64,000 nt of DNA from Spirosoma spitsbergense DSM 19989 (GTDB lineage: Bacteria > Bacteroidota > Bacteroidia > Cytophagales > Spirosomataceae), in NCBI RefSeq assembly GCF_000374085.1, contig NZ_KB893499.1:1-64000 (forward strand), in the 5' to 3' direction. The notes beneath the pieces were generated by a model. That model was not told the origin of the DNA. It worked only from the letters and a program-made list of their open reading frames with translations, and searched no databases. This document shows, one piece after another, positions 8,949-60,376 of the stretch; positions within the stretch are counted from its first letter, which is position 1; each line of letters starts with the position of its first letter. The position numbers and the translations under genes were made by a program.

Positions 8949-9129
8949 CGCTTTAGAAGCTATTCGAGTTAAGCGCTTTGGCCTAAAAGCGCGTCTTTTG
9001 GCCATGTTCTGCGTTACTTTTTTCATCCGTAGCTACGGCTACGAACTCAAAAAGTGCCTTGACCACAACCAAAATTCACTGCTTTCAGTCTCAAATCGCT
9101 AACATAAACAGCTTCTTACCCAGCACCCT

Positions 9130-10137
9130 ATGAGACCATTTAAATATACGTCCGCAACCGATGTTTCGTCGGCCGTAAAAGGGCTGTCGGGTAACCCACA
9201 TGCCAAATTTCTGGCGGGTGGCACCAATTTACTCGACCTGATGAAGGAAGATGTAGAGCGGCCCGATGAACTCATTGACATCAACCGACTGCCGCTTACC
9301 GAGATCAAAGCTATTGCAGCCGGAACCAGCCAGGGAGGCCTTTCCATTGGCGGCCTGGGTAAGAACACCGATGCAGCCAACCACCCGCTGGTTCGTCAGC
9401 ACTATCCGTTACTGACCCAGGCCATTCTGGCCGGTGCATCCGGTCAGATACGGAACATGGCAACCAACGGCGGCAATCTGCTGCAACGAACCCGCTGCCC
9501 CTATTTCTACGAGGTGTCGATGCCCTGCAATAAGCGGGAGCCGGGTACGGGCTGTAGCGCCATGCAGGGAATAAACCGGCTGCACGCCATCTTCGGCTGG
9601 TCCGAGAAGTGCGTGGCGGTTTACCCCTCCGATATGGCGGTTGCGCTGGCCGCGCTGGATGCCGTCGTGAACGTCAGGAATGACAGCGGACAGGAACGGA
9701 CCATTCCGTTCGCCGATTTTCACCGCCTACCCGGCGATTCGCCCGAAAAAGAGACCAACCTGAACCCGGGCGAACTGGTTACTGCCATTGAGTTACCCAA
9801 AAACAGGTTTGCCGACCACTCCTATTACCTGAAAGTCCGCGACCGTGCTTCGTATGCGTTTGCGCTGATTTCGGTAGCGGCTGCGCTGGAACTGGACGGG
9901 AACAAGATCAGCAAGGCCCGCATCGCGATGGGTGGCGTGGCGCACAAGCCCTGGCGCGTACTAAAAGCGGAGCAACTGCTCGTTGGGAAAGAAGCAACCG
10001 AAGCAAACTTCAGGTTGGCAGCAACGGCCGGGATGGCTGATGCCCGACCACTGGAACACAACAAATTCAAAGTGGAACTGGGCAATCGGAGTATTGTCCT
10101 GGCGCTGCAACAAGCCCTGAAGGGCAGCAAATCCTGA
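9130..10137 (+). CDS. Molybdenum hydroxylase FAD subunit with extra 4Fe-4S site (PaoB/YagS-like)
   Basis: 335-residue FAD-binding middle subunit. AGGTNLLDLMK (residues 29-39) and ATNGGNLLQRTRCP (111-124) are the flavin-binding loops. Cys123, Cys133, Cys142 and Cys161, in CPYF...CNKR...GC...SEKC, form the loop that carries an additional 4Fe-4S cluster in E. coli PaoB and 4-hydroxybenzoyl-CoA reductase. This places the enzyme with the periplasmic aldehyde oxidoreductases rather than with plain xanthine dehydrogenase. The gene is separated from the small-subunit gene by 181 bp with no coding signal and from the large-subunit gene by only 17 bp. Confidence 0.9.
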   Translation: MRPFKYTSATDVSSAVKGLSGNPHAKFLAGGTNLLDLMKEDVERPDELIDINRLPLTEIKAIAAGTSQGGLSIGGLGKNTDAANHPLVRQHYPLLTQAILAGASGQIRNMATNGGNLLQRTRCPYFYEVSMPCNKREPGTGCSAMQGINRLHAIFGWSEKCVAVYPSDMAVALAALDAVVNVRNDSGQERTIPFADFHRLPGDSPEKETNLNPGELVTAIELPKNRFADHSYYLKVRDRASYAFALISVAAALELDGNKISKARIAMGGVAHKPWRVLKAEQLLVGKEATEANFRLAATAGMADARPLEHNKFKVELGNRSIVLALQQALKGSKS

Positions 10138-10154
10138 TTTAATTAGCCAATGTC

Positions 10155-12275
10155 ATGCGCGAAACAGATAAAGTAGTCGGTACACCCGTCAGTCGTATCG
10201 ACGGTATTTTAAAGGTGACGGGCAAAGCAGACTATTCGGTAGACCATCCGATCAAGAATGTAGCCTACGCCGTTTTGTTCAAGAGTACCATTGCCGCCGG
10301 AACGATAACGAACATTGACTCGGCAGCGGCCGAAAAATCGCCGGGCGTTCTGGCCGTTATCACGCATAAAAATGTGCCCAAACTGAACGTAAAAGGCGGC
10401 ATTCGGGGGGGAGCTATGCTGCAAAGCCCCGAAATCGAGTTTTATGGCCAAAATATCGGTATCGTCGTTGCGGACACGTTCGAGCAGGCCCGCCATGCCG
10501 CGCACCTCATACACGTTGATTACGACAAAAAAACGCCGAAGGCTGATTTCGACAAACTGGCCAGCGAGGCCATGCCGCCGAAAGACAATCACGACGAGAA
10601 ATGGGGCGACGCCAAAGCAGCCCTTCGCACGGCCGATTATACCGTTGAAGAAACCTATTCTACGCCGATTGAGCACCACCACCCTATGGAGCCCCACGCA
10701 GCCATCGCCGAATGGACTGGCAACCAGGTGACGTTGTACAGCAGTGCCCAAATTGTGAACGGCGCGCAGCACGCAGCGGCCGCTACGCTGAACCTCACTC
10801 CGGAGAACGTACGAATCGTTTCACCCTACATTGGGGGCGGGTTCGGCTCCAAAGGCGGTCAGTGGGCCAATCTGGTGCTCACGGCCGTAGCGGCCAAAGT
10901 GGCCAACCGCCCGGTAAAACTGGCGCTGGCCCGTAATCAGATGGTCAACTCGGTCGGGTTGCGGCAGCGAAATTTCCAGAAGGTAAGTCTCGCTGCCACG
11001 AAAGAGGGAAAGCTAACCGCGCTGGCGCATGAAATTACGACCCACTGCGCCATACATACTGAATTTGTGGAACCTTGCGGGGATTGTTCCAAAATCATGT
11101 ACGACACGCCCAACGCCCTCATTACGTACCGGGTAGTACCCATGAACGTCATCCTGCCGACCTACACCCGTGGACCGGGAAAATCGACGGGTAGCTTCGC
11201 CCTGGAGTCGGCGGTGGATGAGCTGGCGTACAAACTAAAGATGGACCCCATCGAATTCCGCATCAAAAATGAACCGGTCAAAGACCCGTCGAATGGCAAA
11301 CCGTGGTCGTCGCGGAAAGCGGTGGAGTGTATGCAGGCAGGGGCCAAAGCCTTCGGTTGGGACAAGCGCAAACAGGAGCCACGCCAAAATCAGGACGGTA
11401 ACTACCTGATTGGCTACGGCGTGGCCTGTGGTACTTATCCGGCGCACCAACGGCCAAGTTCAGCCATTGTGAAGCTAAACCGGGAAGGCAGTACCGTTAC
11501 TGCCATTATCGAACTGGCCGCTGCCGATCTGGGAACGGGCACCTACACCATACTGGCCCAAACGGCAGCCGACGCACTGGACCTGCCCATCAAAAACGTA
11601 AACGTCCATATTGGCGATTCGGATCTGCCACCAGCCGCCGGTTCGGTGGGTTCCGTAGGTGCAACCAGTTATGCCAACGTGGTAAACGATGCCTGTATCA
11701 AAATTACGGACGAGTTGATTGCCAAGTCGGGGAAAGAGTATTACGCCCGGCCAACCGCTTCGCAGTTAATGGTATCGGAAAAGATAAGCACGCACCAAAC
11801 CAGAATAGATTCCAACCCACTGGAGAGCGCGGAAAAGTACTCAGCCCATAGTTTCAACGCTAATTTTGCCGAAGTACGGGTCAACAGGTTAACCGGGATG
11901 GTTCGGGTTTCCCGTTTCCTGGCCGTGACGGGAGCGGGTAAAATCCTGAATCCCAAAACGGCCCGGTCGCAGATTATTGGCGGCAACATATGGGGCATCG
12001 GTATGGCTCTAACCGAAGAATCGGTGCTCGACCCACGCTGGGGTAATTTCGTGACCCGGTCGCTGGCCGATTACCACGTGCCGTCCAATCTGGATATTGG
12101 CGAAATGGAAGCCATTTTCATTCGCGAAGAAGATACCCTCTCCAACAGGATGGGGATAAAAGGCATCGGGGAAGTGGGTATCGTGGGGGTTGCAGCCGCC
12201 GTTGCCAATGCCGTATTCAACGCAACCGGCAAGCGCGTCCGGGAGCTACCCATCACACCCGACAAGCTGCTGTGA
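10155..12275 (+). CDS. Molybdopterin-binding large subunit, xanthine/aldehyde oxidase family (PaoC/YagR-like)
   Basis: 706-residue catalytic subunit that binds the molybdenum cofactor and oxidises an aldehyde or N-heterocycle with water. The N-terminal domain starts VGTPVSRIDGILKVTGKADY. Cofactor-loop motifs include PYIGGGFGSKGG and RGPGKSTGSFALESAVDELA. The base catalyst glutamate is E673 in GIKGIGEVGIVG. Length and order match PaoC (about 730). No own signal peptide is seen, so export would be by hitch-hiking on the Tat signal of the small subunit. A PaoD/XdhC-type maturation factor is not in this window. Substrate is unknown; aromatic aldehydes are the best analogy. Confidence 0.92.
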   Translation: MRETDKVVGTPVSRIDGILKVTGKADYSVDHPIKNVAYAVLFKSTIAAGTITNIDSAAAEKSPGVLAVITHKNVPKLNVKGGIRGGAMLQSPEIEFYGQNIGIVVADTFEQARHAAHLIHVDYDKKTPKADFDKLASEAMPPKDNHDEKWGDAKAALRTADYTVEETYSTPIEHHHPMEPHAAIAEWTGNQVTLYSSAQIVNGAQHAAAATLNLTPENVRIVSPYIGGGFGSKGGQWANLVLTAVAAKVANRPVKLALARNQMVNSVGLRQRNFQKVSLAATKEGKLTALAHEITTHCAIHTEFVEPCGDCSKIMYDTPNALITYRVVPMNVILPTYTRGPGKSTGSFALESAVDELAYKLKMDPIEFRIKNEPVKDPSNGKPWSSRKAVECMQAGAKAFGWDKRKQEPRQNQDGNYLIGYGVACGTYPAHQRPSSAIVKLNREGSTVTAIIELAAADLGTGTYTILAQTAADALDLPIKNVNVHIGDSDLPPAAGSVGSVGATSYANVVNDACIKITDELIAKSGKEYYARPTASQLMVSEKISTHQTRIDSNPLESAEKYSAHSFNANFAEVRVNRLTGMVRVSRFLAVTGAGKILNPKTARSQIIGGNIWGIGMALTEESVLDPRWGNFVTRSLADYHVPSNLDIGEMEAIFIREEDTLSNRMGIKGIGEVGIVGVAAAVANAVFNATGKRVRELPITPDKLL

Positions 12276-13607: not shown

Positions 13608-15005
13608 CTACGCATTCGTTTTGGGTTCTGCCCCGCGGAACGCATCTTTTTTATCGACAGTTGGTAGCTTTACCGGCTTGCCTTCCCGCGCCGACTGATA
13701 GATGGCTTCCATTATCTTCTGATCCTGCAACCCTTCTTCGCCGGGCGTATACGGTATGGTGTTTCCCATAATGGATTCCGAGAAGTGATCAATTTCGGCC
13801 GCAAACTGGTCTTTGGCCGCTAGTTTATGCTTGGTGAGCCTGTTTTCCTTTCCCTCTGCCTGACTGGTCTGCAATTGTAGCCCTTCGTACGGGAAAGCAG
13901 GGTCCATCTCAATCCAGCCAGTCTCGGCCAATACTTTATAACTCCGCTCCTCGTGGTGGCCGTAGCCGGTGGCGCAACTGGTTTGTACACCACTCGGAAA
14001 TTTCATGAGCCAGTTTACCTGCTCTTCCACTTCGCGAAAACGCGGATCGTCCGGTGTGCTATGAATGAAACCCATTACTTCGGTTGGTTCTTCAGCCAGC
14101 AAATACCGGATGGTATTGAGGCAATAAAGACCCACATCGGGTAATGCCCCTCCCCCGGCCAGCTTTTTGTTGAAGCGCCAGTGCGACGGGTTATCAGAGT
14201 TTTGCCCATTATTGGCCATAATGCTTTTCACCTTGCCGAACTCCCCTTTCTGAACCATATCCCGCACTAGTTTGTGGTGCGGTTCATACTGAATACGATA
14301 CGCAACCATCAGCTTTCGATTGGCTTTTTTACAGGCATCGATCATTGCCTGACACTCTGCTACGGAGTTGGCCATTGGTTTTTCGCAGAGGATATGTTTC
14401 CCCGCCTGCGCCCCCCGAACCGTATACTCGGCGTGCATGCCATTGGGCAATACGATGTAGATAGCATCCACTTCCGGATTGTCCCGTAGTTTATCGTAGT
14501 CTTCGTAGCTATAGCAACTTCCGCTTTTGATGCCGTACTGCGTGGCTACTTTCTTCATTTTTCCGGGACTGCCACTCACCAGGGCAACCACTTTTGATTT
14601 TTCACAGGTACCGAAGGCGGGTAGTAGCTGATTGAGCGTCAGGTGGCCCAGCCCCACAAGGGCGTACCCCACCCGTTTCCCATCGGGCAGTGGCGTAGGT
14701 GGTGGCGGGTCCTGCTGCTCGGTGGTGGCTTTTATTTGCTCCAGCTTAATAGGCTTAGTGGTATCGGCAGGCACTTCGGCGGGTGGCGAGGTAGCTGCCA
14801 GTTTAGGCACAGAACCGCTGGAGACTCCACTAGAAACAGAGTTGACGGTATTCGCTCCTGTTTTGTCCCCACAGGCAACAAGTACACTGCCAATGACACC
14901 GGTAGCCAGTCCTAACCCGGCCGTTCGCAGGAATTGCTGCCGGGATAAATCAACGGGTTTTGACTGCTTCAACAGGGGTTGTATTAAAGAAAAAATCGGT
15001 TTCAT
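13608..15005 (-). CDS. Gfo/Idh/MocA-family oxidoreductase with export-type N-terminus
   Basis: 465 residues. After residue 20, SRQQFLRTAGLGLATG and VLVACGD resemble an exported lipoprotein-type leader. A poorly conserved, Pro/Thr-rich linker to about residue 108 follows. The Rossmann domain begins RVGYALVGLGHLTLNQLLP, and the catalytic-site motif HILCEKPMANSVAEC is the family EKP signature. This is the glucose-fructose oxidoreductase type, an NAD(P)-dependent dehydrogenase acting on sugars in the cell envelope. The ATG at 15003-15005 lies inside a perfect hairpin. If that hairpin terminates the upstream NIPSNAP gene, a downstream start is possible, though no convincing one is seen. Confidence 0.88.
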   Translation of the reverse strand: MKPIFSLIQPLLKQSKPVDLSRQQFLRTAGLGLATGVIGSVLVACGDKTGANTVNSVSSGVSSGSVPKLAATSPPAEVPADTTKPIKLEQIKATTEQQDPPPPTPLPDGKRVGYALVGLGHLTLNQLLPAFGTCEKSKVVALVSGSPGKMKKVATQYGIKSGSCYSYEDYDKLRDNPEVDAIYIVLPNGMHAEYTVRGAQAGKHILCEKPMANSVAECQAMIDACKKANRKLMVAYRIQYEPHHKLVRDMVQKGEFGKVKSIMANNGQNSDNPSHWRFNKKLAGGGALPDVGLYCLNTIRYLLAEEPTEVMGFIHSTPDDPRFREVEEQVNWLMKFPSGVQTSCATGYGHHEERSYKVLAETGWIEMDPAFPYEGLQLQTSQAEGKENRLTKHKLAAKDQFAAEIDHFSESIMGNTIPYTPGEEGLQDQKIMEAIYQSAREGKPVKLPTVDKKDAFRGAEPKTNA

Positions 15006-15035
15006 ACAGTAGCTATTTACTGTATGAAACCGATT
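14994..15035 (-). terminator. Perfect 18-bp hairpin with U tract over the start of the oxidoreductase gene
   Basis: AATCGGTTTCATACAGTA (14994-15011) is the exact reverse complement of 15018-15035, with a 6-nt loop. On the minus strand the stem is followed directly by a run of T, the form of an intrinsic terminator for the NIPSNAP gene, which ends at 15062. The AUG of the next gene lies in the 3' arm of the same stem. The structure could therefore be an attenuator or a translation lock. Confidence 0.75.
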
Positions 15036-15061
15036 CTCAAAACAGGTTGTTTGCCGAATTC

Positions 15062-15865
15062 CTATTTCATCGGCGAATAATCCGTAGGCTTCATGTAGAT
15101 CGACTCTACTTTGGTCGTGAGCGACCCGCCACCCATTTTCTCCGATTCCTCTTTAGCCGCTATCCACTTGGGGTCTTTCCGGAACTCCTCAAAATGCTGC
15201 TTTCCTTCGGCTTCGCTGGGGTGCGCCAGAATATACACCAGTTTAGGTGGCGTAGCCGCGTCTTTTTCTTCCGTAACAAAGTAGCCAACATTCGTCATGC
15301 CATGCTTGCTGAATAGTTTAATGGTATGATCCCGAAAGCGCGACAGCAGGTTCGGCAGTTTGTCAGGCGTGGGCGTGTACGTACGCAACTCGAATATGCG
15401 TTCGGGCGATTTCCGGGCAACTTTAACTTTGGGCGATATGTCAGATTCGGTCATAAAAATCTGATCAACATGATCCACCAGTTTGCCATTGGCTTCGGTT
15501 TTGGCTACCACGGCTTTCCATTCCGGATCGCTGCCAAATGCTTTCCAGGAGGCATCACGAGCGGCCCGGTCGGGATAGGCCAGAATATAGATCAATTCTT
15601 TATTGGTCGTGTCGGTTGGCGTCCAGTAGCCAATGTTTTCCATACCATGTTTCTCAAAAATCTTTGTGGTGTATTGCCGGAAACGGTCCACTATTTCGGC
15701 ATATTTACCGGGAGTCGGATGGTAAATTCGCACTTCATAGAGTTTTGATCCGGGCTTGGCAGGACTGGAACTGGGTTTGTCGGGTTGCATAGACGCCGGT
15801 AAGGCGAACGTGCTGATGCTCAGAAACAGGCTACCCATTAATACTAAATACAGTTTGGCGATCAT
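15062..15865 (-). CDS. Secreted protein with two NIPSNAP domains
   Basis: 267 residues with a signal peptide (residues 1-22, ending TFALPASMQ). Two copies of the dimeric alpha/beta-barrel NIPSNAP fold are visible. The first begins KLYEVRIYHPTPGKY with HGMENIGYWTP. The second begins RIFELRTYTPTPDKL with HGMTNVGYFVT. Each also has an ILAYP/ILAHP strand. NIPSNAP proteins are small oligomeric barrels with no settled enzymatic role. It is 56 bp upstream of the Gfo/Idh/MocA gene on the same strand, with a terminator-like hairpin between, so co-transcription is doubtful. Confidence 0.88.
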   Translation of the reverse strand: MIAKLYLVLMGSLFLSISTFALPASMQPDKPSSSPAKPGSKLYEVRIYHPTPGKYAEIVDRFRQYTTKIFEKHGMENIGYWTPTDTTNKELIYILAYPDRAARDASWKAFGSDPEWKAVVAKTEANGKLVDHVDQIFMTESDISPKVKVARKSPERIFELRTYTPTPDKLPNLLSRFRDHTIKLFSKHGMTNVGYFVTEEKDAATPPKLVYILAHPSEAEGKQHFEEFRKDPKWIAAKEESEKMGGGSLTTKVESIYMKPTDYSPMK

Positions 15866-56154: not shown

Positions 56155-57447
56155 TTGTCTTCCGTCCGTTTACTGCCCCCAGCCACGCTCACCCAGCCCG
56201 GTCTTATTCAGGCTACCATTCCATTGGCCTCGTCGAAAAGTGAAAGCAACCGCGCCCTTATTATCGACGCGCTGACCGGTTTCCGGTGCGACCTGAAAAA
56301 CCTGTCTACCGCCCGCGATACGCAGACGATGATTCGACTGCTCAACTCCACCGACCCGGTGGCCGACGTGCTGGACGCGGGTACGACCATGCGGTTTCTG
56401 ACGGCCTACTTCGCTGTTACCGGCGAATCCACGCCGGGCCAGCAGAAAACAATGACCGGCACGCACCGCATGTGCGAACGGCCCATCGGTATTCTGGTCG
56501 ATGCGCTACGCACCCTCGGTGCCGACATTACATATCTAAAGGAAGAGGGCTACCCACCCCTGCAGCTCAACGGCTTCTCGGCATCTGGCAATAACCAGAT
56601 CAGCATACGGGGCGATGTAAGCAGCCAGTATATTTCGGCCCTGCTCATGATTGCCCCGCTGTTGCCCAACGGTATCACCCTGGAGCTGGTTGGACCTATC
56701 GGATCGCGGCCTTATATCGAGATGACGATGGAGCAAATGCGCTTTTTTGGGGCCGATGTGCAGGCCAACTGGGACAGCAAAACCATTGTGGTAGCCCCGC
56801 AACCCTACATACCTGCCGCCTACGCCATCGAATCCGACTGGTCGGGAGCAAGTTACTGGTACAGCGTATCCGCTTTAGCGAAAGACGAAACCGCTGAAAT
56901 CACGCTGCTGGGCCTGAAAGCCAAATCCTTACAGGGCGACAGCGCGATTGCCGACCTGATGCAGGCGTTCGGCGTCCAAAGTACCTTTACCGAAGCGGGC
57001 GTTCGACTGACCAAGTGCCCTACCAGTGACTCTCTGGCCTGGGACTTTACGGACTGCCCCGACCTGGCGCAGACGGTGGCCGTTTGTGCCGCCATGAAAG
57101 GCATTACCCTACGCCTGACGGGCATCGAGAGCCTCAAAATAAAGGAGACCGACCGGGTACTGGCCTTACAGACCGAGTTGCAGAAGATTGGTGCCGAACT
57201 GGTTGAAATCGAACCGAATCACCGCTACGAGGTTCGTCAGACGGGCACAAAGCCCAGTGCTCCTGCTACCATTGCTACCTACGACGACCACCGGATGGCG
57301 ATGGCTTTTGCCCCGGTAGCCATGCGTCAGGAAATCATCATTGAGGAACCGGGCGTTGTGGCCAAATCCTATCCCAGCTTCTGGGATGACATGGCAAGGG
57401 TAGCAACGGTGGAGTTTTCATCAGAAGAAACCCAGCATCCATCCTGA
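56155..57447 (+). CDS. aroA: 3-phosphoshikimate 1-carboxyvinyltransferase (EPSP synthase)
   Basis: 430 residues from a TTG start; no in-frame ATG lies early enough. ASSKSESNRALIIDALTG, LDAGTTMRFLTAYFAV, MCERPIGILVDALRTLGA, SDWSGASYWYS, IKETDRVLAL and YDDHRMAMAF are the EPSP synthase motifs in order, with the catalytic Asp/Glu/Lys positions filled. It makes 5-enolpyruvylshikimate-3-phosphate in aromatic amino-acid synthesis. The microrepeat just upstream leaves only a few bases for a ribosome site. Confidence 0.95.
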   Translation: MSSVRLLPPATLTQPGLIQATIPLASSKSESNRALIIDALTGFRCDLKNLSTARDTQTMIRLLNSTDPVADVLDAGTTMRFLTAYFAVTGESTPGQQKTMTGTHRMCERPIGILVDALRTLGADITYLKEEGYPPLQLNGFSASGNNQISIRGDVSSQYISALLMIAPLLPNGITLELVGPIGSRPYIEMTMEQMRFFGADVQANWDSKTIVVAPQPYIPAAYAIESDWSGASYWYSVSALAKDETAEITLLGLKAKSLQGDSAIADLMQAFGVQSTFTEAGVRLTKCPTSDSLAWDFTDCPDLAQTVAVCAAMKGITLRLTGIESLKIKETDRVLALQTELQKIGAELVEIEPNHRYEVRQTGTKPSAPATIATYDDHRMAMAFAPVAMRQEIIIEEPGVVAKSYPSFWDDMARVATVEFSSEETQHPS

Positions 57448-57473
57448 CAGCGGTGTTGCCCGTTTTGGGTACT

Positions 57474-57647
57474 CTACGCGGTCCGGGAGGAGGACAGGGC
57501 CACCCAACGACCGCGTGTAGTGATGGTGAGCGAAGCGAACCTTTACACACACGCCCGGTTGGGCTGTCGGCCCGAACAGGGGCGGCCCACCTGTCGCCCG
57601 CGACACGGCCACGCGGAGCGAATAGCAACGCACGAATCCGCTTTTTT
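57474..57647 (+). ncRNA. Structured region ending in an intrinsic terminator after aroA
   Basis: Several stems follow one another: CTACGCGGTC (57474-57483) with GACCGCG-TG-TAG (57509-57520), ACAGG/CCTGT, GTCGC-CC-GCGAC, and finally GCGGA (57613-57617) with TCCGC (57637-57641) followed by six T. This could be only the aroA 3' end, or a small RNA of about 170-190 nt. No promoter of its own was found. Bases 57648-57709 show nothing further. Confidence 0.3.
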
Positions 57648-57709
57648 AGGTTGAGTGCGAAGCCCAACAACGCACAAAATCCGCTTGCAAATCAGTAATG
57701 TAAATGTAT

Positions 57710-57955
57710 TCAATATCCATAATTAACTTTTGAACGCAAACTGCTAACATCAGATTTAACAGAACTAACATCAGACTTGAGAGAACTGACATCGGATTTA
57801 AGAGAACTAAAATCATAACTTGAAGAATACAGGACATTTGCTCTAAGGTCATCAATTTCGCTTTTCTGTACCAGAATTTGACAACCTTGAACCAAAAAGA
57901 GAATTACAAAAATATAATTCTTCTTTCTCAGGATAAAGTCCTTAAATCTCTTCAT
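57710..57955 (-). CDS. Small membrane-anchored protein with 7-residue SSLKSDV repeats
   Basis: 81 residues. A basic N-terminus (MKRFKDFILRKKNY) is followed by one hydrophobic segment (IFVILFLVQGC) and a linker, then four tandem heptads of the type SSLKSDV (SSLKSDV, SSLKSDV, SSVKSDV, SSLRSKV), encoded by 21-bp tandem DNA repeats. The heptads should form a short coiled coil. It appears AT-rich compared with aroA. I recognise no family. It is the first gene of the island between aroA and the LolA-like gene. Confidence 0.55.
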   Translation of the reverse strand: MKRFKDFILRKKNYIFVILFLVQGCQILVQKSEIDDLRANVLYSSSYDFSSLKSDVSSLKSDVSSVKSDVSSLRSKVNYGY

Positions 57956-58059
57956 TTTTTTGATTGTTAAAGGTTTAAAATTGATAAGTTTTGTTTTTTC
58001 CTAACACCAGAAAGTGCTGATAGAGAGAAATTTAAATGCTATAACGAAAGCATTAACCT

Positions 58060-58258
58060 CTTTGACTAACTACCCTAACCGGGGCTTTTGCCCTGTCGGA
58101 CGCGACCCGCCTAATTTTTTAAAAGTCTGCCCAACGGGGCGTTTCCCTTGTCGCAGGTGGCCTGAAAATGGAAGCCTAAACCTGCCTTACGAGCCGCGCT
58201 GCTTGTCGCACGAAACCTGAAAGTGCGAGTAACAGCCTTGTCACTGCACCCAATGCCG
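58060..58258. other. Hairpin-rich, non-coding region before the tandem structured elements
   Basis: No credible gene. Short stems occur repeatedly: GGGC-TTTT-GCCC near 58084, TCGCAC/GTGCGA at 58206-58228, and GTGC-G-AGT with ACT-GCAC at 58223-58249, the last with a single bulged base. The words TTGTCG and ACCTG recur every 60-70 bases. These may be degenerate older units of the elements that follow. Confidence 0.35.
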
Positions 58259-58333
58259 GCAAGGGCTGAAAGGCTCCGGCTCAAAAGTCTACTAAACCTG
58301 CACCAACCCGACCCAGAGCCTTTACACCCTTGC
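58259..58333. repeat. Tandem element unit A, module 1 (bulged-C hairpin)
   Basis: GCAAGGG-C-TG-AAAGGCT (58259-58275) pairs with 58317-58333 over 16 bp, with an extrahelical C on the left and an extrahelical A on the right. The loop contains AAAGTCTACTAAACCT, echoed in the other unit. The corresponding stem in unit B has different bases with pairing kept (GC versus AA at the foot). Confidence 0.8.
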
Positions 58334-58335
58334 GA

Positions 58336-58527
58336 AGTTGTCCTGACGGTCCCCCGGCTCGACCTGACGCTGCGGTCCGTTTACACCCATCCCCAAAAAG
58401 GATGGGCTGAAACGGTGGGGTGCCCATTTGTAAGTCGGTGGGGAAGCCTATAAGTATACTTATAGGCTTCCCCACCGACTTACAAATAGCCCCATAGCGA
58501 GGCAGGTAGGGGGCATCTCAGACAACT
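58336..58527. repeat. Tandem element unit A, module 2 with 62-bp perfect palindrome
   Basis: The module is closed by AGTTGTC-C-TGA (58336-58346) and TCAGACAACT (58518-58527), 10 bp with one bulged C. Inside are a stem ACGGTCC/GGTCCGT with a T-T mismatch, a 7-bp hairpin CCCATCC/GGATGGG (58386-58406), and a perfect palindrome at 58426-58487. The palindrome arms run ATTTGT, then 19 bases (AAGTCGGTGGGGAAGCCTA), then TAAGTA at the centre. There is no spacer. Shared flanks with unit B run from GTTGTC to GACAAC. Confidence 0.9.
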
Positions 58528-58529
58528 CC

Positions 58530-58596
58530 AACAAGGGCTGATGGGCCGTAAGCAAGTCCGGTTAACTACTCAAGTTCCGCCCTTTTCACCCTTGTT
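58530..58596. repeat. Tandem element unit B, module 1 (bulged-C hairpin)
   Basis: AACAAGGG-C-TGA...GGGC (58530-58546) pairs with GCCC...TCACCCTTGTT (58579-58596), again with a single extrahelical C. It starts two bases after unit A ends, so the units are directly tandem with a period of about 265-270 bp. Confidence 0.75.
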
Positions 58597-58598
58597 TT

Positions 58599-58792
58599 TG
58601 TTGTCCCGACGGTCCCCCGGCTCGACCTGACGATACGGGCCGTTTACACCCATCCAGTCCGGAGGATGGGCTGATGCGGCCAGGGTGCCCATTTGTGGGG
58701 GTTGGGGAGAGGGTCTAAGTATACTTAGACCCTCTCCCCAACCCCCACAAATAGCCCCGAAGTGAGACAGGTAGGGGGCATCTCGGACAACA
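58599..58792. repeat. Tandem element unit B, module 2 with 62-bp perfect palindrome
   Basis: Closed by TGTTGTC-C-CGA (58599-58609) and TCGGACAACA (58783-58792). Compared with unit A, two pairs changed on both sides (A-T to T-A, T-A to C-G). The hairpin CCCATCC/GGATGGG is at 58649-58670. The perfect palindrome is at 58691-58752, with the same ATTTGT ends and TAAGTA centre as unit A but a different 19-base arm (GGGGGTTGGGGAGAGGGTC), mirrored exactly on the other side. Confidence 0.9.
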
Positions 58793-58811
58793 TACTATTG
58801 TGCGCAAGTCC

Positions 58812-58854
58812 ATTAAACCTTAATATTCTGAAATTCAAGTAATTAAGGTTTAAT
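58812..58854. repeat. 13-bp inverted repeat after the tandem elements
   Basis: ATTAAACCTTAAT (58812-58824) and ATTAAGGTTTAAT (58842-58854), perfect, 17-nt spacer. The preceding GCAAGTCC also occurs in the loop of unit B module 1, so this may be the start of a third, lost unit. A small stem CTTGTC-TTAG-GACAAG follows at 58888-58903. Confidence 0.5.
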
Positions 58855-58934
58855 TCAGTAAGCAAGCCTATATTTACGGCCCGTTTACTTGTCTTAGGAC
58901 AAGAATACATAATTCACCCTGTTCCACAAGTGGT

Positions 58935-59177
58935 ATGCCAAAAAAAATTGCAGTCACTTTATTAATCGGTCGTGTTTGGAATATAGATGGGTTCCCGGAC
59001 TACTTTTTTGGGGCCGACAATCAGTTGTATCGTTACGATTCGAGAGGGGCCATCCGTAAAAACAAACGAATCGTAGTACACTATACCCAGGGATATTCGT
59101 TGAAAGGGCGGTTTTACAGCCTCGCCCGATTGCGGCCACTGCTGCGTCGTCATACAAATGAACCCGATGGGGAGTAA
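58935..59177 (+). CDS. Small NUMOD4-like protein
   Basis: 80 residues. WNIDGFPDYFFGADNQLYRY resembles the NUMOD4/HNH-associated DNA-binding motif (W-x-x-I-x-G-F-x-x-Y), followed by a basic stretch (RGAIRKNKRIVVHY, FYSLARLRPLLRRH). No HNH nuclease residues are present, so only a DNA-binding role can be guessed. It lies between the palindromic elements and the recombinase and reads away from the elements. A TATATTTA near 58870 could be a weak -7 box. Confidence 0.5.
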   Translation: MPKKIAVTLLIGRVWNIDGFPDYFFGADNQLYRYDSRGAIRKNKRIVVHYTQGYSLKGRFYSLARLRPLLRRHTNEPDGE

Positions 59178-59198
59178 CAAAATTCTTACGTTAGGCCG

Positions 59199-60376
59199 CT
59201 ACAAATCATCCAACGGTGATTTGATCGTACTGATCTTGTTTGCCGTCACGTGTGTGTAGCGCATGGTGGTCAGGATGCTTTCGTGGCCCAACAATGCCTG
59301 GGTGTAGCGAATATCGGTGCCTGATTCTAATAAATGAGTGGCGAAGCTATGTCGCAGGGTGTGAATGCCGCCTTTCTTGTTGATTTCGGCAAAGTGAACC
59401 GCGTCGCTATACACCTGTTGAATGGTCCGATTGGCAATGGGTTCGCCCGTTTCGGGGTCTTCAAACAGAAACGTTTTGGGTTTATAGTAGGTCTGGTACT
59501 CGCCGATGGCCGCTTCGAGTTTATCGGTCAACATAACGGATCTTTCTTGCCTTTACCACTGCGCACGTTAACCAGCCTCCGGTTTCGGTCAAGGTCGGTT
59601 AGCTTCAGGTGAGCTACCTCGCTTAGGCGCAGTCCAGTCGCGTACACGAGTTGAAACAACGTCCGGTATTTCAAACTGGTTGTGGCCCTGAAAATGGCTT
59701 TTACTTCGGCCATGCTATACACAGTGGGAAGTTTTACGGGCTGTCGGGGATACTGAATATCATAGAACTCTTTGTCGCGTTGTAATACTTTCTCGCAATA
59801 GAACTTATACGAGTTTATATGGACGTTGATGGTTGAACTGCTCAACTTTTTCCGGTTGATGAGAAACAGCAGGTATTTCTGATAGTCGGGTTTGGTAAGC
59901 TGGTCAAGTGGTTTTGCCCCGGCGTAACGGATTAGAGTAATCAGGGCCTGTTTATAGTTTTTGAGGGTCTTGTAACTGTACTGCTGCACCCGGAGCGCGT
60001 TGGTGATCGCTACAATGACGGGGTGTTTATCGTACTCACGTGTGGGCGGAGTGTATCGAAACGGCTTTGGATGGGTAGCTACGCTGCGTTTGACAGCCGG
60101 GGGCCAGGCTGGGTTCACTGCCTGTTCCAGTTCGGCGGGGGTAGCAGCCGGTTTGTAAAGTCGCACAACGGCTTCATCGAACCGGCAGTGGTCTTTGCCA
60201 AATAGCTGCCCGATTTTCACCACCGATTCCCGCGTGTTGGGAACAACCCAGCCTTTGCGGGTGTAGCTAAAACGGCGACCAGGTACGTTGCGTACCAGGT
60301 CGTTGCCCAGCGTATCAATGGGGAAATAAACGGCCAGTAGAGCAGGGTCTTTTTCGTCGATGCGAACGGTTATCAT
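59199..60376 (-). pseudogene. Tyrosine recombinase/integrase split by a -1 frameshift
   Basis: Two overlapping frames together make one phage/Xer-type integrase of about 390 residues. The first (60376 to 59528) has an N-terminal extension, a SAM-like core-binding domain (LRVQQYSYKTLKNYKQALI) and YATGLRLSEVAHLKLTDLD with catalytic Arg I, ending [12 protein letters not shown]. The second (59534 to 59199) begins [17 protein letters not shown] and holds [15 protein letters not shown] (HxxR), [14 protein letters not shown] (His, Tyr). The split lies at about 59540. A single lost base restores [13 protein letters not shown]. All catalytic residues remain, so it is either recently broken, a sequencing error, or read by frameshifting. 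No canonical slippery heptamer is seen. Confidence 0.85.

Follow-up and report, generated by a model that had tools for sequence, protein, structure and literature searches.

What are two adjacent units, each built around a long perfect palindrome, doing beside a tyrosine recombinase gene in Spirosoma spitsbergense DSM 19989? We examined this locus in a 64,000-nucleotide stretch of contig NZ_KB893499.1 (hereafter the window) and in related genomes. The reading that we favour, at a probability of roughly 0.8, is that the units form a tandem pair of cassettes in which no gene can be recognised, positioned at the attI-type site of an integron-like array in the chromosome, and that the arms of their hairpins are copied from one another. 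An initial annotation of this DNA had placed two tandem units at 58259-58792. The tandem arrangement stood, and the range had to be redrawn, as the units extend to 58790 on the attI side and to 58254 at the other end. The annotation had also known of no described element with such features; the anatomy is one already known from integrons, where cassettes stand in tandem at attI, and that claim was given up.

Two palindromes with mirrored differences

The window contains two spacer-free perfect palindromes of 62 bp with 31-bp arms, at 58426-58487 and 58691-58752, exactly as first described; the arms of all other spacer-free palindromes in the 64 kb reach at most 8 bp (16 bp in total). Both palindromes have the same outer ATTTGT and the same centre TAAGTATACTTA. 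Between ends and centre, 12 of 19 arm positions differ between the two, each difference being mirrored in the opposite arm, and the sequence thereby confirmed the annotation on every one of these points. Apart from the palindromes the two modules are identical in 111 of 132 aligned columns (77/93 and 34/39).

Comparison of the outer 18 pairs in six hairpins revealed four distinct arms, in which 12 positions vary, invariably on both sides; the arms are thus not fixed in sequence, a possibility that the annotation had held against its own interpretation. All 72 arm cells in these four arms are Watson-Crick pairs, with no G-T pair and no mismatch, whereas the remaining helices of the module have 133 Watson-Crick cells out of 158, 18 G-T pairs, and 7 mismatches (p = 5e-5 versus the arms). 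As a sign of copying this contrast is suggestive only, because the arms were noticed for their perfection and mismatches elsewhere may be alignment errors; the statistic covers four distinct arms only, chosen for being palindromic. Since the arm changes are always two-sided, without G-T pairs or mismatches, we favour arm-to-arm copying: the hairpin arms change in step, one probably being copied from the other. The arms differ only in matched pairs, and the annotation's proposal that selection or a copying process acts on the folded form is supported. Replication template switching is known to create and mend such stems, according to the available text of PMC8794818, and the palindrome pairs are a natural setting in which to ask whether long hairpins can be kept perfect by template switching and nothing else.

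Organization of the locus

On the minus strand the order of features is a broken tyrosine recombinase gene, a small antisense open reading frame (ORF), a hairpin, an attI-type site, and three cassettes (A, B, and a third). The recombinase gene (59199-60376, minus strand) has a broken frame and consists of pieces at 59528-60376 (282 aa) and 59199-59534 (111 aa). Between it and the attI-type site, on the plus strand and thus opposite to the recombinase, lies an ORF of 80 aa (58935-59177) with no match in Pfam or NCBIfam; by eye, a frame resembling it occupies the same place in loci L053 and L144. An AT-rich hairpin (58812-58854, an inverted repeat with 13-bp arms) follows upstream of the attI-type site, and comparable hairpins were seen by eye upstream of many attI-type sites. 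The attI-type site itself, TTGCGCACAATAGTATG|TTG, is at 58788-58807 on the minus strand, with a putative crossover between 58791 and 58790.

On the minus strand, palindrome cassette A would span 58526-58790 (265 bp), its ends being taken from the attI and attC ends. It contains the palindrome at 58691-58752, an inner hairpin at 58640-58679 in which attC L-box sequences appear in swapped order (a likeness judged by eye), and an attC-type site at 58520-58606 (minus strand). Cassette B, 272 bp on the same strand with predicted ends at 58254 and 58525, holds the palindrome at 58426-58487, an inner hairpin at 58377-58415, and an attC-type site at 58248-58343 (minus strand) whose R' box is ATTGGGT. 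The third cassette (putative ends 57508-58253, minus strand) carries an ORF of 81 aa at 57710-57955 and an attC-type site at 57502-57564 (minus strand). The three sites score 67.7, 46.1, and 55.1 bits, respectively, with the attC model R2 described below, and all three are among its 30 training rows. The R'' box of each window cassette can pair, with at most one mismatch, with the bases that open the same cassette, as is expected of integron cassettes.

attC-type sites form same-strand arrays

Repeated sites around the palindrome copies of another Spirosoma genome (G031), and in many of the matches to the window flank, have the form GCCCAAC-n-GGGTGTAAAGG...CCATCAGCCC-n-GTTGGGT, and on their sequence we read them as attC-type boxes. 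The annotation had considered the bulged-stem module an attC-like recombination site in principle, and had stated that the R-box sequences do not match. The first idea is supported by the boxes and by the covarying L-boxes of relatives. The second proved incorrect: homologous sites have GCCCAAC/GTTGGGT, which fits the integron pattern RYYYAAC...GTTRRRY, and the boxes in the window, partly diverged, are GGACAAC/GTTGTCT, GGACAAC/ATTGGGT, and GCCCAAC/GTTGGGT.

Model R2 was built from 30 attC-type sites, including four rows from palindrome-cassette sites and window sites. In this alignment 97.8% of cells are paired (99.0% for the L-box pairs, 96.2% for the outer-box pairs), both sides have changed in 5 of 17 pairs, and sliding the partner reduced pairing to 28-54%. 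No strand preference was found in the folding of these sites, the bottom strand being lower in folding energy in 11 of 30. With the best 19 candidates per genome scored, R2 sites were present in at least 51 of 222 family genomes. Arrays run in one direction by this model, with 11 sites in L053 and 10 in L046, each on one strand. Of the ORFs of at least 100 aa, all 8 in L046 run along the attC strand, as do 9 of 13 between 2560 and 16300 of L053, where two of the four exceptions presumably belong to a transposable element; we take the ORFs at 9079-10525 and 14146-15525, inside this array, to resemble transposases.

L053, from genome G008, has the layout of the window with a long array: reading on from the recombinase along its strand, one meets a small antisense frame, then a hairpin, TTGCGTACAATAGTATG|TTGGGTG, and finally an array of attC-type sites. 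Such same-strand arrays downstream of orthologs support the annotation's view that the nearby tyrosine recombinase is part of the same system. Across the 222 genomes, counting the matches listed, 36 have both the recombinase and R2 sites, 7 the recombinase only, 15 sites only, and 164 neither (Fisher p = 1.5e-22, in a test that ignores shared ancestry). Within the genus, again among the matches listed, attC-type sites were present in 24/24 genomes with a recombinase match and in 10/12 without. Presence of the sites therefore does not discriminate by recombinase within the genus. Their number is higher with it, at a median of 16 sites per genome versus 3.5 (p = 0.0006, best 19 candidates per genome).

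A search of the 222 family genomes for the 20-base attI motif, allowing up to 2 mismatches, gave 76 places in 39 genomes, 26 of them among the 36 of the genus; a reversed-motif control was found in 2 of the 222. Of the 39 genomes, 16 have the motif at two or more places. We read 47 attI-type sites, namely 46 of the 76 and one diverged site. At 16 of these, the window included, a recombinase lies on the same strand and ends 333-404 bp upstream; at the other 31 the stretch read contains no recombinase match.

A tyrosine recombinase without the IntI insertion

Both pieces of the window recombinase match Pfam Phage_integrase, and they score 93.9 and 94.3 bits against the integron integrase model TIGR02249 (cut-off 265). 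The ortholog in G008, which matches the window gene in two pieces at 68% and 72% identity (tblastn), scores 194.7 with TIGR02249, also under the cut-off, 193.5 with a XerA/integron model (cut-off 220), and 186.4 with XerC. Its best relative of solved structure, by sequence, is XerA. Where the chain of the integron integrase 2a3v has 65 residues this ortholog has 28, and 27 orthologs, G008 included, align to almost all of the query over 1005-1044 nt, leaving no room for the IntI insertion. The additional domain specific to IntI was not found in orthologs of the window recombinase; that insertion is described as necessary in the parts of the literature available to us. We therefore regard the locus as built like an integron, and do not file it as a canonical one.

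At E = 1e-60 the recombinase occurs in 43 of 222 family genomes, with one match in each except G151, which has two. The window genome yielded no second copy at this threshold. The array there is probably fixed now, because the sole recombinase copy found is broken. The recombinases of the window and of L135 are broken at nearly the same residue, and the DNA at the break differs. No recombinase was confirmed in viral contigs. Relatives on plasmids came from 118 records, many of them rhizobial, all below 60% identity; in one of these (H14, NZ_KM017071.1) a recombinase match overlaps an annotated IS91 family transposase.

Fold and reading frames of the palindrome cassettes

RNAalifold predicted from the module alignment a closing stem, the long hairpin, and an inner hairpin that resembles the pair of attC L-boxes with their order exchanged. 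The covariation from T-A to C-G reported earlier for the foot stem is present (alignment column pair 8-149), and so is the bulged C described there; inspection by eye showed a second bulge in this stem, an A on the opposite arm. No frame of at least 30 codons is common to all four modules inspected by eye. A short ATG frame of 18 to 94 codons is found at the same offset in 7/7 module copies; in both window copies it has 18 codons and a stop inside the palindrome.

The fold could be that of a structured RNA encoded by the cassette, with selection on the RNA alone, and no copying, keeping the arms matched. An 841-nt stretch does fold far more strongly than its shuffles (z = -7.6), the closing stem and the inner hairpin are conserved, and ORF-less cassettes that encode regulatory RNAs are known from the available text of PMC8876359. 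We nevertheless find this explanation doubtful: the arms lack the G-U pairs and mismatches that make up 25 of 158 cells in the other helices, and the two strands fold about equally well. A known RNA family was rejected as a candidate, for none of the 42 Rfam matches to 57400-59300 at E up to 10 reached the gathering score.

Position offers another explanation, in which the module serves as a leader or insulator: standing first in the array, its short frame and hairpin would control the following cassettes or the recombinase. At 6/6 loci (one in the window, three in G031, and two in G146) the intact module immediately adjoins an attI-type site, the ATG frame keeps its offset, and promoter-bearing ORF-less cassettes have been published, as far as the accessible portion of that literature states. 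However, neither the length of the frame nor its sequence past the first few codons is kept, and at 42 of the 47 attI-type sites read the palindrome module is not next, making a leader or insulator an unlikely account.

Distribution of the palindrome cassettes

A DNA search with 58040-58880 gave matches in 25 of 36 genus genomes, mostly to the flank; the palindrome unit itself was matched conspicuously in a single further genome, G031. Most of the genus-wide flank matches arise because cassette starts share a repeated motif of about 55 bases. By eye, this motif (for example GGTTTCGGTCGACACGAGAAACGCCCCGGTTGGGC) is present 1-3 times per cassette at cassette starts in the window (58040-58250) and in L097-L136. 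G031 has three copies of about 592 bp that are 98-99.8% identical, each holding two 100% identical units at 254-bp spacing; the shared sequence stops at GTTGGGTG, with divergence beyond.

Of the 222 family genomes, three yielded the intact module, namely those of the window, G031, and G146, and two more yielded remnants; a lack of other copies, by which the annotation would have been refuted, was thus not encountered. Exact matches of two 300-base stretches identify G146 as Fibrivirga algicola JA-25 (Spirosomataceae). One remnant is a rearranged copy in G145, which sits after an attC-type site; the other is a half-module in G083 (L140) with the second arm and the 3' half only. G146 has, besides its intact modules, a start-only piece at L146 (G146:C1:1226031-1226138) that runs into another cassette body. 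By eye, the incomplete modules of L146 and L140 break at the palindrome, as a fragile hairpin might.

In model R1 the structure supplied was out of register, with 41% of cells paired, and its matches rest on sequence. An R1 search at order level, in 390 genomes drawn from the larger group, returned the window genome, G031, and G146 only among the matches listed. Model R3, with the RNAalifold structure, found 4 of 222 genomes within the family, without the G145 copy listed by R1. A hairpin-pattern scan of genome contigs matched Fibrivirga twice and L152, a Neomarinimicrobiota record that was rejected, having no module by eye and resembling rRNA. Matches to GGTAGGGRGCATCTC in G150, G151, and G208 were likewise rejected by eye as mutually similar stretches without the module. 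The hairpin pattern was absent from viral contigs.

A MITE, or the end of an insertion sequence with a chance palindrome, is very improbable: it would fit the near-identical repeated copies in G031 and the long inverted repeat, but the copies end in an R' box and adjoin attI-type sites, the units stand head-to-tail with attC-type sites, and 72,556 plasmid records contained no DNA match. No known IS end, an origin that the annotation had named among the findings that would refute it, was recognised in the sequences examined, and the right-hand boundary falls in the R' box. A phage or plasmid element was rejected on four counts: no hairpin match in viral contigs, no confirmed viral recombinase, no plasmid DNA match, and plasmid recombinase relatives below 60%.

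Comparison with known integrons

Tandem cassettes at an attI-type site, our preferred reading, share with a chromosomal integron (intI, attI, and attC cassettes) the recombinase, the attI-type site, the R and L boxes, the same-strand arrays, the ORF-bearing cassettes, and an R'' box matching, with no more than one mismatch, the beginning of the cassette it belongs to. They differ in the recombinase, which has no IntI insertion and reads toward the array, in having more than one attI-type place per genome in 16 of the 39, and in L-box bulges on both arms (by eye). Counting against this reading are the absent IntI insertion, the sites in 10/12 genus genomes without the recombinase, the 31/47 attI-type sites without one in the stretch read, the even folding of the two attC strands, and the small set of arms behind the arm statistic. 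ORF-less integron cassettes, namely the promoters of Treponema and the RNAs of Xanthomonas in the text of PMC8876359 available to us, likewise have no recognisable gene, an attC at the end, and the first position; the cassettes here differ from them in their conserved three-way-junction fold and their long perfect hairpin of changing sequence. An integron-like subgroup of simple tyrosine recombinases is described in the accessible portion of PMC8138268; for the recombinase here, XerA is the best match of solved structure by sequence.

The proposed mechanism is that a tyrosine recombinase of the simple kind, with no IntI insertion, places cassettes at the G^TT of attI by way of the folded attC. 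Each palindrome could form a hairpin or cruciform, and replication template switching may carry a change in one arm over to the other, which would leave the arms fast-changing yet perfect. We slightly prefer a role for the hairpin as an aid to the folding and capture of its own cassette; further candidates are a part in a cassette RNA, and control of transcription or translation beside attI as a leader or insulator. More tentatively, we suggest as a possibility that these loci form a separate integron lineage of the Spirosomataceae, with an insertion-less recombinase, attI and attC families of its own, and several attI per genome. The gene-free palindrome cassette might then be a selfish unit and a preferred guest at attI, its self-correcting hairpin and swapped L-boxes drawing the recombinase.

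Reviews, in the text available to us, list Bacteroidota among the phyla with integrons. For Bacteroidetes, a survey (PMC9024848, accessible portion) gives earlier finds as array-less recombinases only, and one complete integron, in Salinibacter. Among open-licence PMC papers we found none linking integrons with Spirosomataceae or, through attC and attI, with Cytophaga-named taxa; in some the words integron and Spirosoma co-occur, once each. Arrays with diverged sites and a recombinase without the IntI domain would escape searches that require this domain, and gene capture in Bacteroidota may therefore be commoner than thought. If the recombinase works, such arrays can do without the IntI insertion.

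Further long perfect inverted repeats were observed at three loci: a spacer-free 64-bp palindrome in L037 (1255-1318), a hairpin with 26-bp arms in L038 (2302-2359), and a spacer-free 40-bp palindrome in L049 (2996-3035).
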